Program-made: the position numbers and the translations under genes
Assembly: GCA_947495075.1 (NCBI GenBank)
Contig: CANLXH010000002.1
Location: 62,001-126,000 of the forward strand
From: an uncultured Croceitalea sp.
GTDB taxonomy: Bacteria; Bacteroidota; Bacteroidia; Flavobacteriales; Flavobacteriaceae
Direction of reading: 5' to 3'
DNA length: 64,000 nt
The notes under the pieces: model-generated
Seen by the model: the letters and a program-made list of their open reading frames with translations, nothing else
Told to the model about the DNA's origin: nothing
The model's database searches: none
In this document: positions 1,522 through 43,034 of the stretch, in pieces
Layout of the letters: the number at the start of each line of letters is the position of its first letter
How positions within the stretch are numbered: position 1 is the first letter of the stretch

Positions 1522-4257
1522 TTATAGTGTTTTCTTAACAGCTACTTCCTGGAATGCTTCTACAATATCTAATTCTTTAATATCATTGTAATTTTTAACC
1601 TGCAATCCACAATCATAACCCTTTGCAACTTCTTTAACATCGTCTTTAAAACGTTTTAATGAAGCTAATTCTCCTGTGAAAACTACCACGCCATCACGTA
1701 TTAATCGGATTTGAGAGTTTCTAAATATTTTACCAGTAGTTACCATACAACCAGCAATTGTTCCAATTTTGGAGATTTTGAAAGTTTCTCTAATTTCTGC
1801 AGTACCCGTAATTTCCTCTTTAATTTCTGGAGAAAGCATCCCTTCCATGGCATCTTTCAAATCATTGATAGCTGCGTAGATGATGGAATACATTCTGATA
1901 TCGATTTCTTCTCTATCAGCTATTTCACGGGCATTACCCATTGGTCGGACGTTGAATCCAATAATGATCGCATCTGAAGCACTAGCCAGTAACACATCAG
2001 ATTCCGTAATAGCGCCAACACCTTTATGAATAATATTAACTTGTATCTCGTCAGTAGATAATTTTTGAAAAGAATCTGTTAACGCTTCGACTGAACCATC
2101 TACATCACCCTTTAATATTATATTCAACTCTTGGAAATCGCCTAACGCAATACGCCTACCAATTTCATCAAGCGTAATATGTCTTTGTGTTCTTACAGAT
2201 TGTTCACGTTGTAACTGCGAACGTTTAGTTGCAATCTGCTTAGCTTCACGCTCATCATCCAGTACATTAAATTTATCACCAGCTTGCGGAGCACCATCTA
2301 AACCTAAAATAGAAACCGGGGTTGCCGGTCCAGCTTTTTTAATGGTTTTACCTCGTTCATCTTGCATAGCTTTAACCTTACCACTAGTGGTTCCTGCCAA
2401 AACATAATCTCCAACTTTAAGCGTACCCGCTTGTACCAAAATTGTAGACACATACCCTCGTCCTTTGTCCAAGAATGCTTCTACAACTGTTCCGTTTGCT
2501 AGTTTATCCGGGTTTGCTTTTAGTTCCAATAATTCCGCCTCAAGCAATACTTTTTCTAACAATTCTTTTACGCCTTGGCCGGTTTTCGCAGAAATATCAT
2601 GTGATTGTATTTTACCTCCCCAATCTTCAACCAAAAGGTTCATTTGCGCAAGACCTTCTTTAATTTTATCAGGATTTGCAGTTTGCTTATCAACTTTATT
2701 TATAGCAAAAACGATAGGCACTCCAGCCGCTTGAGCGTGACTGATAGCCTCCTTAGTTTGTGGCATAATATCATCATCTGCTGCTACAACTATAATAGCA
2801 ATATCTGTTACTTGAGCACCTCTAGCACGCATCGCTGTAAAAGCTTCGTGACCAGGTGTATCTAAAAATGCTATTTTTTGACCATTCTCTAATGTAACAC
2901 CATATGCACCAATGTGCTGCGTAATACCACCACTCTCTCCTGCAATTACATTTTCTTCACGGATATAATCCAATAACGAAGTTTTACCATGATCAACATG
3001 CCCCATTACTGTTACAATTGGTGCACGTTCTTTTAAATCTTCTACCCTATCTTCTTCTACCTCAATAGATTCCTCTATTTCTGCAGTAACAAATTCTACT
3101 TCGTACCCAAATTCTTCTGCGACAATGGTCAATGTTTCCGCATCTAATCGCTGATTCATGGTCACCATCATCCCAAGAGACATACATGCAGAAATAATAT
3201 CTGTAGTAGAAACATCCATCATTGTAGCCATTTCATTCGCCGTAACAAATTCCGTAACTTTTAATAACTTATTTTCTAATTCTTGTTGTTCAAGATCTTT
3301 CTCTGTCTGTTGACGGTGCTGATCTCTTTTATCTCTTCTATATTTTGCTCCTTTACCTTTTTTTGATTTACCTTGGAGTTTCTCCAAAGTTTCACGAACC
3401 TGCTTTTGCACTTCTTCCTCTGTAGGCTCTACTTTTGGAGTTGAGTTTGGTCTTTGACCGCCTCTTCCGCGATTAGCAGCTGGACCAGTTCCCTTTTGTC
3501 TATTACCACCTCCTTGTGCTCCATTATTACTTACAATTCGTCTTCTTCTTTTCTTACGATCAGCTGCAGCATCTGGCTTTTTAGGCTCTTCTTTTTTCTT
3601 CTTAGGTTTTTGAAACTTGGTTAAATCAATTTTATCACCTGCAATTTTAGGACCAGATAACTTTTTATATTGTGTTTCTATAACTTCTGGCTCCGCAGTT
3701 GCCTCTTCAGCAGTTTCAGCTTCGGTCTCCTTAGCCACAACAGGTTGTTTTTCAACTTCTACCTCTTTTTTAGGTTTAGTTGTTTCCTTTTTAGTTTCTT
3801 TCTTCTTCTCCTCTTTAACTATTGGTTCGTCTATGACTTCCTTAACTGGTTTTTCTACTTCGGCAACTTTTTCTTCAACCTTCGGTTTTTTATCTAAATC
3901 TATTTTACCAACTGTTTTAGGACCAGAAAGTTCTGCTTTCGCTTTAATAACCTCTTCTGAAGCCGCTTGTCTTTTCTCTCTTGCCAATCTTCTTTCTTCC
4001 TGCTCACGCTCCAATCTCAGCCTAAGTTCTTCCTTTTCTTTTTGCTTCTCTTCAGCCACCTCTTTAGAAGCAACTTTTTTACTCTTATCCGTTTGGAATT
4101 CATCCAACAGCACTTGATATACTTCATCAGTGATTTTAGTTGTTGGTCTAGCTTCAACATCATGACCTTGTGATGCTAAGTAATCAACAGCTCTATCCAA
4201 AGAAATATTTAATTCCCTTAGAACTTTATTTAATCTTATTGTTGGATTTCCTGCCAT
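1522..4257 (-). CDS. infB: Translation initiation factor IF-2
   Basis: A 911-residue GTPase that places initiator tRNA on the 30S subunit and promotes subunit joining. An IF2_N domain occupies about residues 1-55. A long charged Lys/Glu/Pro/Gly linker runs to about 330, and a second N-terminal domain ([20 protein letters not shown]) follows. The G domain has GHVDHGKT (G1), DTPGHEAF (G3) and NKVDK (G4); the beta-barrel and C-terminal domains complete it. The length is typical of Bacteroidota IF-2, whose linker is long. It is the last gene of rimP-nusA-infB; 41 bases separate it from nusA. Confidence 0.98.
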
Positions 4258-38998: not shown

Positions 38999-39029
38999 TT
39001 TGCAATTCAATCTAATAATTGTACATTTG
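38999..39029 (+). promoter_or_regulatory. Promoter of rplM-rpsI
   Basis: TTTG (38999-39002) and TACATTTG (39022-39029) are 19 bases apart, a close match to the Bacteroidota consensus. It places the transcript start near 39035 and rules out the long upstream reading frame at 38966. Confidence 0.7.
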
Positions 39030-39032
39030 CAG

Positions 39033-39045
39033 CCCGTTATTCGGG
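39033..39045 (+). promoter_or_regulatory. Small hairpin in the rplM leader
   Basis: CCCG (39033-39036) and CGGG (39042-39045) enclose a 5-base loop at the start of the predicted mRNA, 31 bases before the GTG start. It may be part of an L13 autoregulatory leader, but this stem alone is short. Confidence 0.4.
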
Positions 39046-39076
39046 AACGATTAGAAATTTAATATTATTTCGAGAA

Positions 39077-39532
39077 GTGGATACATTAAGTTATAAAACT
39101 ATTTCTGCCAACAAATCTACCGTTGATAAACAATGGTTATTGGTTGATGCTGAAGGACAGACATTAGGTAGATTGGCCTCTAAAGTTGCCAAATTACTAA
39201 GAGGAAAGTACAAGACAAACTTTACTCCTCACGTAGATTGCGGTGACAACGTGGTTGTTATCAACGCAGAAAAAATACAAATGAGTGGTAACAAGTGGGC
39301 AGATAAATCTTATATCCGATACACAGGATATCCTGGTGGACAACGTTTTACTAGTGCTTCTCAATTATTAGAAAAGCACCCTGAAAGGATTATTGAAAAA
39401 TCTGTAAAAGGCATGCTTCCTAAAAATAGATTAGGTGCTGATTTATTCAGAAACTTAAAAGTATATGCTGGAACTGAGCATGGTCAAGAAGCTCAAAAAC
39501 CTAAAGCAATTAACTTAAACGACTATAAATAA
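39077..39532 (+). CDS. rplM: 50S ribosomal protein L13
   Basis: A 151-residue ribosomal protein: [44 protein letters not shown], then [24 protein letters not shown] and [10 protein letters not shown]. The frame can be extended to 38966, but the promoter lies inside that extension and family members begin at this VDTLSYK segment. The start is therefore GTG at 39077, which yields the usual length. Its stop overlaps the rpsI start by one base (TAATG), so the two are translationally coupled. Confidence 0.95.
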
Positions 39533-39918
39533 TGGACGTTATTCACAAAATTGGAAGAAGAAAAACAGCTGTAGCACGTGTATATGTTTCTGAAGGAAAA
39601 GGAAATATCACTGTTAATAAAAGAACATTAGAAGAGTATTTCTCTACAGCTACATTACAATATAAAGTAAAGCAGCCTTTTACACTTACTGAAACAGATG
39701 GAAACTATGATGTTAAAGTAAATGTTTACGGTGGTGGAATTACTGGTCAAGCGGAAGCTGTTAGATTAGCATTGTCTAGAGCAATGTGTGAAATTGATGC
39801 TGAAAACAGAGCAGTTCTTAAACCAGAGGGCTTACTAACTAGAGACCCAAGAATGGTGGAGCGTAAGAAATTTGGTCAGAAGAAAGCTCGTAAGAAATTC
39901 CAGTTCTCTAAACGTTAA
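39532..39918 (+). CDS. rpsI: 30S ribosomal protein S9
   Basis: A 128-residue ribosomal protein. [25 protein letters not shown] is the start signature, [19 protein letters not shown] the core, and the basic tail [18 protein letters not shown] reaches toward the P site. It is coupled to rplM and ends before a strong terminator. Confidence 0.98.
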
Positions 39919-39932
39919 TCACAAAATTATCA

Positions 39933-39956
39933 GGCATCCTTTTTTGGATGCCTTAA
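39933..39956 (+). terminator. Terminator of rplM-rpsI
   Basis: GGCATCC and GGATGCC (39933-39939, 39946-39952) enclose a T6 loop, followed by TTAATTATATTTT. It starts 15 bases after the rpsI stop. Confidence 0.8.
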
Positions 39957-39983
39957 TTATATTTTCTAACAAGTTCATTGAAA

Positions 39984-40069
39984 GTCCTTTTTTAAAGGGC
40001 AATTAAAAAATCCCAAAACCCAACCTAGTTGGCAGACTAAACCAAGTAAAACTTGAAAGTAGTTTTGGG
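39984..40069 (+). promoter_or_regulatory. Structured element upstream of rpsB (hairpin plus three-way junction)
   Basis: A hairpin (39984-39990 with 39994-40000) is followed by a three-way junction. P1 is CCCAAAAC/GTTTTGGG (40012-40019, 40062-40069). P2 is CCAAC-CTA-GTTGG (40020-40032). P3 is CAAGT-AAA-ACTTG (40043-40055), extended by ACT/AGT. All three stems are perfect. It lies 98-183 bases before rpsB and after the rpsI terminator, so it may be an S2 leader RNA. A possible promoter (TTG 40053-40055, TAGTTTAG 40075-40082, 19-base gap) overlaps it, so the palindromes could instead act as DNA sites. Confidence 0.5.
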
Positions 40070-40166
40070 TAAATTAGTTTAGCATCTAAATGATGAAGGC
40101 TTCCTTACTATTTTTTGGATACCACTTTATCATTGCTAATTCAAAAGAACGTAAACTAAATTTAAA

Positions 40167-41264
40167 ATGGCGAAAGTCGAAGTAAAACAATTATTAGAAG
40201 CAGGTGTGCACTTTGGACACCTTACACGAAAGTGGAACCCAAACATGGCTCCTTACATCTATATGGAGCGTAACGGTATCCACGTTATCAATCTTTACAA
40301 AACAGCTGCGAAATTAGAAGAAGCTAATGAAGCTTTAAAGAAAATAGCAGCATCTGGAAGAAAAATTCTTTTCGTAGCTACAAAGAAACAAGCAAAAGAC
40401 ATTGTTGCTGAAAAAGTTTCAAACGTAAATATGCCATACATTACTGAAAGATGGCCAGGTGGTATGTTAACTAACTTTGTAACTATTAGAAAAGCTGTTA
40501 AGAAAATGGCTGCTATTGATAGAATGAAGAAAGACGGAACATTCTTAACTCTTTCCAAGAAAGAACGTTTACAAGTGGACCGTTTAAGAGCTAAGCTAGA
40601 TAAAAACTTAGGTTCTATTTCTGAGATGACTCGTTTGCCTGGTGCAATTTTTATTGTTGATACAATGCGTGAGCATATAGCAGTGAAAGAAGCTCAAAAA
40701 TTAAATATTCCAATTTTTGCGATAGTAGATACAAATTCTGACCCAAGACCAATTGACTTTATTATCCCTGCCAATGATGATGCTGGTAAGTCTATTGATG
40801 TTATCATGTCTGAAGTTACTAATGCTGTCGCAGAAGGTTTAGCAGATAGAAAAGCAGAAAAGCAAAGTGATAAAGAAGGGAAAGAAGCTCCTAAAGCTAA
40901 AGAAAAAGCTGCTACTCCTAAAGCTGAAAAACCAGTTGAAAAAAAGGCAGAGGCTGCTAAAGAAGAAAAGCCAAAGAAGAAGGCAGCTCCAAAAGCAAAA
41001 GCAGATGACCTAACCAAAGTAGAAGGTGTTGGACCTAAAGCTGCAGAAGCATTAGTTGCTGCTGGCATCGTTACATATGTTGATTTAGCTAAAGCTAAAC
41101 CAGAAGCTGTTAAAACTATACTTACAGATGCTAGTCCAAGACTTGCTCATTTAGAGCCTGCTTCATGGCCAAAGCAAGCTAAAATGGCTGCCGATGGTAA
41201 ATGGGACGAACTTAAGGAATGGCAAGACAACACTAAAGGTGGAGTTGAAGATTCTGAAGAGTAG
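40167..41264 (+). CDS. rpsB: 30S ribosomal protein S2 with C-terminal HhH extension
   Basis: A 365-residue protein, over 100 residues longer than usual. Residues 1-230 are a standard S2 (EAGVHFGHLTRKWNPNMAPYIY, TERWPGGMLTNF, AIVDTNSDPRPIDFIIPANDDAGKSI). A Lys/Ala/Glu/Pro-rich linker runs to about 278. The last 85 residues form a helix-hairpin-helix domain (DDLTKVEGVGPKAAEALVAAGI) that ends in a Trp-rich tail. HhH domains bind nucleic acid, so the tail may contact rRNA or mRNA near the 30S surface. I recall a similar tail on flavobacterial L21. First gene of rpsB-tsf. Confidence 0.97.
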   Translation: MAKVEVKQLLEAGVHFGHLTRKWNPNMAPYIYMERNGIHVINLYKTAAKLEEANEALKKIAASGRKILFVATKKQAKDIVAEKVSNVNMPYITERWPGGMLTNFVTIRKAVKKMAAIDRMKKDGTFLTLSKKERLQVDRLRAKLDKNLGSISEMTRLPGAIFIVDTMREHIAVKEAQKLNIPIFAIVDTNSDPRPIDFIIPANDDAGKSIDVIMSEVTNAVAEGLADRKAEKQSDKEGKEAPKAKEKAATPKAEKPVEKKAEAAKEEKPKKKAAPKAKADDLTKVEGVGPKAAEALVAAGIVTYVDLAKAKPEAVKTILTDASPRLAHLEPASWPKQAKMAADGKWDELKEWQDNTKGGVEDSEE

Positions 41265-41280
41265 TTTAATATTGATTCAT

Positions 41281-41299
41281 AAAACACTTATGGTGTTTT
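41281..41299 (+). terminator. Weak hairpin between rpsB and tsf
   Basis: AAAACAC and GTGTTTT pair around a 5-base loop, followed by ACTTTATATAATTTTTT. It is AT-rich and the T run is delayed, so it probably lowers rather than stops transcription into tsf. Confidence 0.45.
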
Positions 41300-41330
41300 A
41301 CTTTATATAATTTTTTAAAAAGTACATAAA

Positions 41331-42155
41331 ATGGCAAAGATTACAGCCGCTGAAGTAAATAAATTAAGAAAAGCTACTGGAGCTGGAATGATGGATTGTA
41401 AAAATGCATTGGTTGAAGCTGACGGTGATTTTGATAAAGCAATTGAAATTCTTCGTAAGAAAGGTCAAAAAGTTGCTGCTAAAAGAGCAGATAGAGACTC
41501 TTCTGAAGGTGCTGCAATTGCAAAGGTGGATGCAGGCAATAACAATGGCGTTATTATCTCATTAAACTGTGAGACTGATTTTGTTGCAAAAAATGAAACT
41601 TTTGTAACTCTAGCTAATGAGTTAGCTGATTTAGCATTAGGCTTTGACAATAAAGATGCTTTTATGGCAGCTACATACAACGGAATGACTGTTGCTGAGA
41701 AGCTAACAGAACAAACAGGTGTTATTGGAGAGAAAATAGAGATAGGAAGCTTTGAAAGATTAAATGCTCCTTTTGTAGGATCTTACATTCATGCAGGTAA
41801 TAAGATTGCTACTTTGGTAGGTCTTTCCAGTGCAGTTGATGGTGCTGCTGAAGTTGCAAAAGATGTAGCAATGCAAGCTGCTGCAATGAATCCTGTTGCC
41901 TTAAACGAAGATGGTGTCGACCAATCTGTAATCGATAAAGAAATCGAAATTGCAAAAGATCAATTACGCCAAGAAGGTAAGCCGGAAGCAATGTTAGACA
42001 ATATCGCAAAAGGAAAATTAAAGCGTTTCTTTAGAGACAATACTCTAGTAAACCAAGCTTTCATAAAAGACAGTAAGCAAAGTGTTGCTCAATATGTAAA
42101 GTCTGTTGATTCTAGTTTAGAAGTAACTGCTTTTTCCAGAGTAGCATTAGGATAA
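41331..42155 (+). CDS. tsf: Elongation factor Ts
   Basis: A 274-residue nucleotide exchange factor for EF-Tu. Signatures are the N-terminal UBA-like domain (AAEVNKLRKATGAGMMDCKNALVEADGDFDKAIEILRKKG), NCETDFVAKNE, and the C-terminal QAFIKDSKQSVAQYVK. It lies 66 bases after rpsB, the normal partner, and is followed by a strong terminator. Confidence 0.98.
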   Translation: MAKITAAEVNKLRKATGAGMMDCKNALVEADGDFDKAIEILRKKGQKVAAKRADRDSSEGAAIAKVDAGNNNGVIISLNCETDFVAKNETFVTLANELADLALGFDNKDAFMAATYNGMTVAEKLTEQTGVIGEKIEIGSFERLNAPFVGSYIHAGNKIATLVGLSSAVDGAAEVAKDVAMQAAAMNPVALNEDGVDQSVIDKEIEIAKDQLRQEGKPEAMLDNIAKGKLKRFFRDNTLVNQAFIKDSKQSVAQYVKSVDSSLEVTAFSRVALG

Positions 42156-42174
42156 ATTTATCCTCACAACTTCA

Positions 42175-42207
42175 TAAAAAACCTGAGCCAATGCTCAGGT
42201 TTTTTTG
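42175..42207. terminator. Terminator after tsf
   Basis: ACCTGAGC-CAAT-GCTCAGGT with six A before and seven T after. It can work in both directions and separates tsf from the convergent DUF4097 gene. Confidence 0.9.
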
Positions 42208-42221
42208 CTTTACACCTTATT

Positions 42222-43034
42222 CTATTTAGACTTTATCATTATATCACCATTAAAGGTCTTAAACAGCATCTCTGGTCCTCCACCATTTATTTTTCCTTTA
42301 ATCCATTGTTCTATCTTTACCTTATACGTTCCACTTTTTGAGCTTTTGTCAACATCTGGTTTGTTTTCAGAAATATCCATATCAAAATCGGTATACACAT
42401 CACCCATATCAGATTTTGCTTTAACACTAGCTTTTAAACCTTTTGGAAAAGTAATTTCCACATTACCGTTAAAGCTACTAAAAGCCATATCCGCTCCGCT
42501 AGTTATACTTTTAAAATTAGCAATAAGTTCACCATTAGTAGTGTCAGCACTGGCAGAACCACTAACATCTTTTAAGGTAATTTTTCCATTTACGTTACTT
42601 ATCTCCATTTCTCCATTTACACCCTCAACATAAATATCCCCATTGTTTACTGTTTCTAACATTAGTGAAAAATTAGTAGGCACTTTAATATCAAAATCGG
42701 TTTTATTGTTCCATAATTCGTTATGTATTCTTACCACATTTTCATTTTCTTCTGCTGAAATATTCAGGGAAGACCCAGATATTTTTTTCATCCCCTTTTT
42801 TTCACAATCCTCACATTCATGATCATCTTCATGCACTGTAGCTTTCACAATTACTTCTTTTCCATTATAAGCGACAACTGTTATTGAGCCAGAAATTTGA
42901 TCTACTTCTAACACTCCTGGATTGCTTGGGTTACTTAAAGGAATGGTAAACAAGTCTATCTTTTTCTCTTGGGCACTTGATATACATACTGCTAAGAACC
43001 CAACTACGGTTATTATTAATTTTAAGTTTTTCAT
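42222..43034 (-). CDS. DUF4097 family beta-helix-like envelope protein (copy 1)
   Basis: A 270-residue exported protein (signal ends near ISSAQ). Repeated short strands such as VNNGDIYVEGVNGEMEISNVNGKITLKDVSGSASADTTNGELIANF are typical of DUF4097 (adhesin-like) proteins. An insertion before the repeats carries a C-E-D-C motif (ECEDCEKK), which may bind metal or form a disulfide. DUF4097 domains are also found in LiaX-type proteins of envelope stress systems. It is the last gene of the sigma operon; the gap to its paralog is 5 bases. Confidence 0.8.
   Translation of the reverse strand: MKNLKLIITVVGFLAVCISSAQEKKIDLFTIPLSNPSNPGVLEVDQISGSITVVAYNGKEVIVKATVHEDDHECEDCEKKGMKKISGSSLNISAEENENVVRIHNELWNNKTDFDIKVPTNFSLMLETVNNGDIYVEGVNGEMEISNVNGKITLKDVSGSASADTTNGELIANFKSITSGADMAFSSFNGNVEITFPKGLKASVKAKSDMGDVYTDFDMDISENKPDVDKSSKSGTYKVKIEQWIKGKINGGGPEMLFKTFNGDIMIKSK

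Follow-up and report, generated by a model that had tools for sequence, protein, structure and literature searches.

Whether the gene for ribosomal protein uS2 (rpsB) is preceded by a leader RNA, and where between rpsI and rpsB such an RNA would lie, is the question raised by a stretch of 64,000 nucleotides (nt) from an uncultured Croceitalea sp. (contig CANLXH010000002.1, positions 62,001 to 126,000). The whole of this stretch is referred to here as the window, and coordinates are counted from its first letter. A preliminary description had placed a three-way-junction RNA upstream of rpsB and suggested that it could be an S2 leader of a kind other than the proteobacterial one. That reading is upheld for an element at 40074–40159, for which covariation and no match to the t44 leader model were found, and fails for the junction itself, which belongs to a variable upstream domain. 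Here, the element at 40074–40159 is described and interpreted as probably a cis-acting, autogenous leader of rpsB-tsf, in which uS2 would be the ligand and repression the response.

Architecture of the conserved element

The conserved element comprises ∼85 nt of the + strand, on which rpsB and the upstream hairpin elements given below also lie, starting at the 3′ edge of the junction and ending 7 nt before rpsB. The latter is an open reading frame (40167–41264) for uS2 with a C-terminal extension, the protein being 84–93% identical in seven relatives of the genus. The architecture consists of P1 (UUAGUUUA/UAAACUAA), a 3 × 3 internal loop, P1b, a long P2 with a bulged A, and a variable P3. The 5′ strand of P1 (UUAGUUUA, 40074–40081) pairs with 40152–40159, and its core GUUUA (40077–40081) is almost invariant. 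It is followed by the 5′ half of the symmetric internal loop (40082–40084), where base counts in 248 leaders placed GYA opposite ANG, the G being found in 247 and the A in all 248. The P1b 5′ strand UCU (40085–40087) pairs with 40146–40148, and the P2 5′ strand (AAUGAUGAAG, 40089–40098) forms a helix with 40125–40134. The top of P2 (40099–40123) is made up of the pair 40099–40123, G-C or A-U according to pair counts, and the variable apical hairpin P3, and the A at 40124 bulges out between P2 and pair 40099–40123 (counts in 237 leaders). On the 3′ side there follow the P2 3′ strand (CUUUAUCAUU, 40125–40134), which covaries with its 5′ partner, a single-stranded linker (40135–40145) that starts with GCUA in the window's family and spans 3–34 nt after RUUG across leaders, the P1b 3′ strand AGA with the 3′ half of the internal loop, ACG (40146–40151), and the P1 3′ strand (UAAACUAA, 40152–40159), separated by 7 nt from the start codon of rpsB. 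The common sequence pattern is GUUUAG-Y-AUC-Y-AAAY, a variable helix, RUUG, the linker, and RGAANGUAAAC directly before the start codon. In 247 of 248 leaders, 0–29 nt (median of 11) separate UAAAC from the first ATG; in some leaders, the P1 3′ strand abuts the ATG.

Departures from this plan were also observed (loci are given by their L numbers). In L241, the two facing Gs of the internal loop are both A, a hint of a G·G to A·A exchange. In the same-family leaders L039, L047, L052, L054, and L058, GCCAAAAG-type repeats stand in for the upper portion of P2, which looks like the result of a repeat insertion. Chryseobacterium-type leaders (L069, L071–L076, L307, and L328) have a shifted P2 (CTTCTCCCATCTAAAGAAG) that is similar within the group.

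Occurrence within the order and covariation

To define the reference set, rpsB was located through its protein in 8 genomes of the genus, 60 of the family, and 59 of the order, with the window's own genome in each. The upstream regions examined for the order numbered 124, one genome being left out (G103, where rpsB starts as early as base 47 of the contig). The leader was found before rpsB in 113 of the 124 genomes. The 11 regions without leader anchors were L116, L124, L127, L131, and those of seven reduced genomes of 0.3–0.6 Mb (L138–L143 and L145).

Covariation in the leader is strong. When RNAalifold was applied to 44 sequences, P1, P1b (UCY/RGA), and P2 were proposed unprompted, with compensated changes at 12 of 21 pairs. 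Alignment A2, which consists of 69 of 108 distinct leaders picked to be diverse and to have a P2 of ordinary length, without the short or odd forms of P2, had 93.2% of its cells paired, compared with 78.6% after shuffling and at most 49.8% after sliding; the corresponding covariation scores were 0.427, 0.149, and at most 0.098. In this alignment, changes on both sides were seen at 10 of 12 pairs of the P2 helix, and pair 40099–40123 was G-C in 46 and A-U in 23 of the 69 leaders. The same pair was A-U in 126 and G-C in 73 of 237 leaders of the wider set, and at least 195 of these have the bulged A between two standard pairs. The six most variable pairs of P2 were 81–97% paired versus 42–59% in shuffles (246–247 leaders). 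Short or odd P2 forms were retained in these counts, which omit L222 and L267 (no RTTG) and are biased towards P2 because the best RTTG was chosen by pairing. They also include one false positive inside rpsI (L245), as does the fold test of P1 and P2 given below; it was removed from the set of 248.

In P1, the first outer pair, adjoining the core, was AU in 112, UA in 59, CG in 15, GC in 5, and GT in 5 of the 248 leaders, so that 79.0% were paired as against 44.1% in shuffles. Within the core, the G-C pair was exchanged for A-U in two leaders, G-U in one, and A-G in one, and a U-A pair for C-G in three leaders from two other families (L222, L263, and L267). The third, variable pair of P1b was TA in 149, CG in 36, and TG in 22 of 248 (84.3% paired versus 70.6% shuffled). 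Given that 113 + 21 pattern-found leaders carry the pattern letters by selection, only free positions count as evidence there. The element is a conserved RNA structure with covariation lying 5′ of a ribosomal protein gene, which is one of the marks of an autogenous ribosomal protein leader.

The preliminary description had also allowed for a promoter at this site, acting as DNA. Bacteroidetes promoters follow the consensus TTG-N17–23-TANNTTTG, which is resembled by the TTG at 40053 together with TAGTTTAG at 40075–40082 (5 of the 6 specified letters of the second box), the latter being the P1 5′ strand plus one base. Of 109 leaders, 32 had a TTG 17–23 nt upstream of this box, a number that exceeds those at 11 of 12 control offsets (7–22) but not that at the remaining one (38); this excess speaks against rejection. 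However, the full consensus was found within −160 to +80 of none of the 109 leaders, TA stands before the box in only 69 of them, and the box covaries as RNA with a partner 70 nt away; a promoter at this site can hence be given almost no credence. A σ70 scan returned one site, equal to shuffles. Elsewhere in the window, 39000–39029 matches the consensus exactly (TTG-N19-TANNTTTG), upstream of the likely rplM start and inside the longest rplM open reading frame. Given this match, rplM-rpsI-rpsB-tsf may be transcribed from there.

Predicted stability of the leader

Folded in isolation, the core of the window had exactly the leader structure as its minimum free energy (MFE) fold, with a z score of only −1.87 and 9 of 200 shuffles equally good. 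Across 247 leaders, one of them false, P2 was stable (median pair probability of 0.83) and P1 marginal on its own (0.14), the closed form of P1 being 1.1 kcal/mol better than the open form at the median. A marginal P1 on a stable P2 fits a gate set by a ligand. A P1 near balance without ligand would also suit a passive element, be it a translation standby site, an RNase processing site, or a stability element, that sets the level of rpsB without any ligand, and many members of the class have no such leader. The near-invariant unpaired positions (the 3 × 3 loop and the bulged A) and the retained pairs nevertheless resemble a binding site, and a passive role is considered improbable.

Two other pairings were assessed and set aside. 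A local hairpin GUUU/AAAY was pairable in 99.6% without compensated change. The UAGCA/UGCUA pairing, which would give an open state in the window's family, was pairable in 92.6% with no covariation and is kept as a possible alternative fold.

Distribution beyond the order and gene context

A covariance model built from A2 produced matches in 57 of 296 genomes of the class, including 11 families outside the order, and an S2 start followed the leader in 29 of 29 readable loci among 30. A scan for the exact pattern, blind to genes and covering 84,980 species with one genome apiece, returned at least 117 stretches; rpsB lay directly after 115 of them, and the other two end at a contig edge. By their record names, the 80 pattern stretches listed comprised 35 Flavobacteriales, 35 Bacteroidales, 8 given only as Bacteroidia or Bacteroidetes, and one metagenome-assembled genome each of Chitinophaga and Chlorobiota, both of which may be misbinned. 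Bacteroidales carriers among the matches listed were Parabacteroides, Muribaculaceae, Odoribacter, and others, together with Bacteroides and Prevotella, which are major gut genera. Within the class, the exact pattern occurred once apiece in 64 of 396 genomes, the reversed-pattern control giving none among the matches listed. Given that just 15 candidates per genome were scored in the class-wide model search, and that the exact pattern misses variants, these model and pattern counts are undercounts. A further 100 rpsB upstream regions (74 of the class and 26 of other classes) yielded five model matches at E ≤ 1e−4, all in the class.

The gene order around the leader is nearly constant. In 146 loci from the model or pattern searches, rpsI precedes the leader in 138 of 138 with room, rpsB follows it in 144 of 146, and tsf follows rpsB in 88 of 90 with room, being outside the tested range in L307 and L328. 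The arrangement rpsI-leader-rpsB-tsf would fit several products, and a genuine leader RNA could respond to another ligand, namely EF-Ts, uS9, uL13, bS1 alone, or a ribosome-assembly intermediate. This alternative is nonetheless unlikely: rpsB is directly next in every readable locus (29 from the model search and 115 from the pattern scan), L307 and L328 have no tsf after rpsB within the tested range, and the same gene of Escherichia coli is preceded by a uS2 leader.

Relation to known RNA families

All 4227 Rfam families, Flavo-1 included, were compared with 39000–42500, and none reached its gathering score there; weak matches within the rpsI-rpsB gap had E ≥ 5 and were likewise below gathering scores. 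Neither in the window nor in 18 homologue loci did any family of Rfam 15 match the leader element. In the same set, Flavo-1 (RF01705) gave no match, L13-Bacteroidia (RF03127) gave none at the leader, and t44 (RF00127), against which the E. coli leader scores 83.5 bits, gave none at E up to 10 in the window or up to 0.1 in the 18 loci.

The t44 model matched 3 of 20 other-class loci at E 0.002–0.008, below the gathering score, the 20 being those of the 26 other-class regions covered by the Rfam search. A home-made t44-like signature (CAYAY...TAG-type P1), written after the other-class regions had been viewed, was present in 18 of the 26 other-class rpsB regions of the phylum versus none of 74 same-class and none of 124 same-order regions; shuffled regions contained it in no other-class, one same-class, and one same-order case. 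That the window's element is a t44 (rpsB motif) leader of the widespread proteobacterial type that has diverged would fit its gene and position but, given that t44 matched neither the window nor the 18 homologue loci and that the signature was found in no class or order region, is highly improbable. Given the presence of the t44-like signature in other classes and its absence from the class and order, rpsB seems, on sequence grounds, to have unrelated leaders in different classes of Bacteroidota, from which it is inferred that one leader replaced another.

Two further observations concern these loci. In L190–L215, rpsB of other-class Bacteroidota is often preceded by a t44-like leader that RF00127 detects only below its cut-off. 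At L192 295–332, a subthreshold match to whalefall-1 RNA (RF01762; E 0.0012, 26.9 bits versus 37) lies in the same rpsB region as the t44-like signature.

The upstream domain and neighboring hairpins

The junction of the preliminary description is present in the window. Its three nested stems were located at 40012–40019/40062–40069 (8 bp), 40020–40024/40028–40032, and 40043–40047/40051–40055 (5 bp each, with 3-nt loops), and together they are the MFE fold of 40008–40074 at −15.4 kcal/mol. Shuffles gave −8.88 ± 2.4 kcal/mol (z −2.72), with 3 of 200 equally good; the junction thus folds somewhat better than chance. Comparison of the rpsI-rpsB gaps of relatives spoke against its conservation. In the window's own sequence and 15 close relatives, just 115 of 288 pair cells of the stems are kept (61 of 128 in the outer stem, and 20 of 80 and 34 of 80 in the inner stems), the three outermost pairs being retained in 10–12 of the 16 sequences, in part through changed pairs. 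A three-way junction appeared in the MFE folds of 3 of the 16 (L001, L003, and L030), and relatives mostly show other hairpin arrangements in its place. The junction was rejected as a conserved element on account of this poor stem retention, and 40012–40069 is a variable accessory domain upstream of the conserved core.

The additional hairpin reported directly before the junction was recovered at ∼39984–39990/39994–40000, and the terminator-like hairpin 3′ of rpsI was predicted at 39932–39953. The former falls within a lineage-specific upstream element (39973–40000) composed of GTTCATTGAAAG and a hairpin of variable sequence. In motif counts, GTTCATTGA was present in 15 of 16 subgroup sequences (the complete GTTCATTGAAAG in 12) and in 1 of 108 other loci of the order. 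Many loci of the same family (L006, L038, L044, and others) have another upstream element, GUURUUGUUGUCC-hairpin-GGA, just before the core, and GTTGTY occurs within the last 200 nt of 46 of the 124 upstream regions. Downstream of tsf, a hairpin and T-run at 42142–42206, scored as Leu_leader below the cut-off, is probably the operon terminator.

Discussion

The assignment of uS2 as the probable ligand of the 40074–40159 leader is based on the gene association and on the autogenous control by uS2 described for E. coli (PMC10931766 and PMC2704228), where a uS2 leader is established according to PMC10931766. In the proposed mechanism, uS2 in excess over 30S subunits would bind at the internal loop and the bulge, both conserved, possibly together with bS1 as happens in E. 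coli; the bound protein would stabilize the intrinsically marginal P1. Closed P1 would cover the A-rich ribosome landing site, which lacks a Shine-Dalgarno sequence, such that rpsB would be repressed, and through coupling tsf as well. When free uS2 is scarce, P1 would open and translation would proceed. Given that the P1 3′ strand ends 0–29 nt before the first ATG, closure of P1 should hinder initiation. PMC9976891 reports that Bacteroidia ribosomes fail to recognize Shine-Dalgarno sequences and that the rpsB start region of Flavobacterium johnsoniae has none; because these ribosomes ignore such sequences, a uS2-stabilized P1 over the landing site would be a plain mechanism of repression.

Several results weigh against this interpretation. 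The UUUA/UAAA segment of P1 hardly varies, and support for P1 therefore comes mainly from the first outer pair and from compensated changes at inner pairs in five leaders. Support is lower for the second outer pair (64.9% paired versus 51.6% shuffled in 248 leaders, and 51.8% versus 40.9% in 139 leaders from the model or pattern searches), and the third is unsupported (44.8% versus 47.0% in the 248). Closure of P1 is energetically favored over the open form in only 164 of 247 leaders, and a P1 pair probability above 0.5 was predicted for 26%. Gene context cannot separate uS2 from EF-Ts as ligand. The exact pattern is absent from 332 of 396 class genomes, and of 74 class regions sampled, 56 leave no room for the leader between rpsI and rpsB (≤60 nt). 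Shine-Dalgarno sequences are present at some Bacteroidia rpsB genes, as noted in PMC9976891. Mimicry of 16S rRNA was also rejected, since mononucleotide shuffles matched the 16S locus of a family member (L393, with its flanks) at least as well as four conserved blocks did; no 16S rRNA match was obtained in the window's own assembly.

A bolder proposal, regarded as improbable, is that the leader senses the state of the 30S subunit and not free uS2: subunits without uS2, and so without bS1, would open P1 and translate rpsB, and complete ones would not. This would constitute a second specialized-ribosome feedback beside that of rpsU in bacteria that ignore Shine-Dalgarno sequences, by a leader that would have replaced a t44-type leader near the base of Flavobacteriales and Bacteroidales.

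The autogenous uS2 leader proposed here, being absent from Rfam and the papers searched, is apparently an unreported type. No description of such an rpsB leader was found in the literature searched, the scope of which excluded supplements and most subscription papers. The list of 20 leaders in Eckert and Weinberg 2020 (PMC7247131) contains no S2 leader, and Bacteroidetes are not among the groups given for the rpsB motif in section 6 of Meyer 2009 (PMC2704228). The term rpsB is absent from PMC11109978 and from the main texts of PMC2864571 and PMC8040213 (the supplement of the latter, with 508 upstream candidates, being outside this scope), and the portion of PMC6429828 consulted mentions it once, for an alphaproteobacterium.

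The leader is common to many Flavobacteriales and Bacteroidales, Bacteroides and Prevotella among them, and the other classes are mostly t44-like at the same gene, which looks like one ribosomal protein leader exchanged for an unrelated one. A helix ending at the start codon would also offer a testable route to translational feedback that does not rely on a Shine-Dalgarno sequence.

Among known systems, the L13-Bacteroidia leader (RF03127), as presented by Eckert and Weinberg 2020 (PMC7247131), serves the same operon (rplM-rpsI, with rpsB) in the same class. It sits elsewhere: in L353, a subthreshold match (27.2 bits, gathering score of 38) is found at 3002–3072, whereas the window-type leader is at 4023–4130, and the window itself gave no RF03127 match. 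The autoregulation of rpsU in F. johnsoniae described in PMC9976891 is likewise self-control by a ribosomal protein in the same class, exerted at the translation start, although rpsU uses an extended Shine-Dalgarno sequence and the window's rpsB has a folded leader; the rpsB reporter in that account behaved much alike in all bS21 backgrounds. A further system is t44 RNA (RF00127), the rpsB motif of PMC2704228, which also lies directly before rpsB and in which a pseudoknot links the P2-P3 junction to the extension following P1. In E. coli, t44 represses rpsB-tsf in response to uS2, a response that is inferred for the window's leader. According to PMC10931766, the E. coli ribosome binding site is outside the operator, whereas P1 of the window's leader reaches the start site. 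Given that the mechanism of uS2 in E. coli is described there as unclear, a second uS2 operator with a built-in start site would be helpful.
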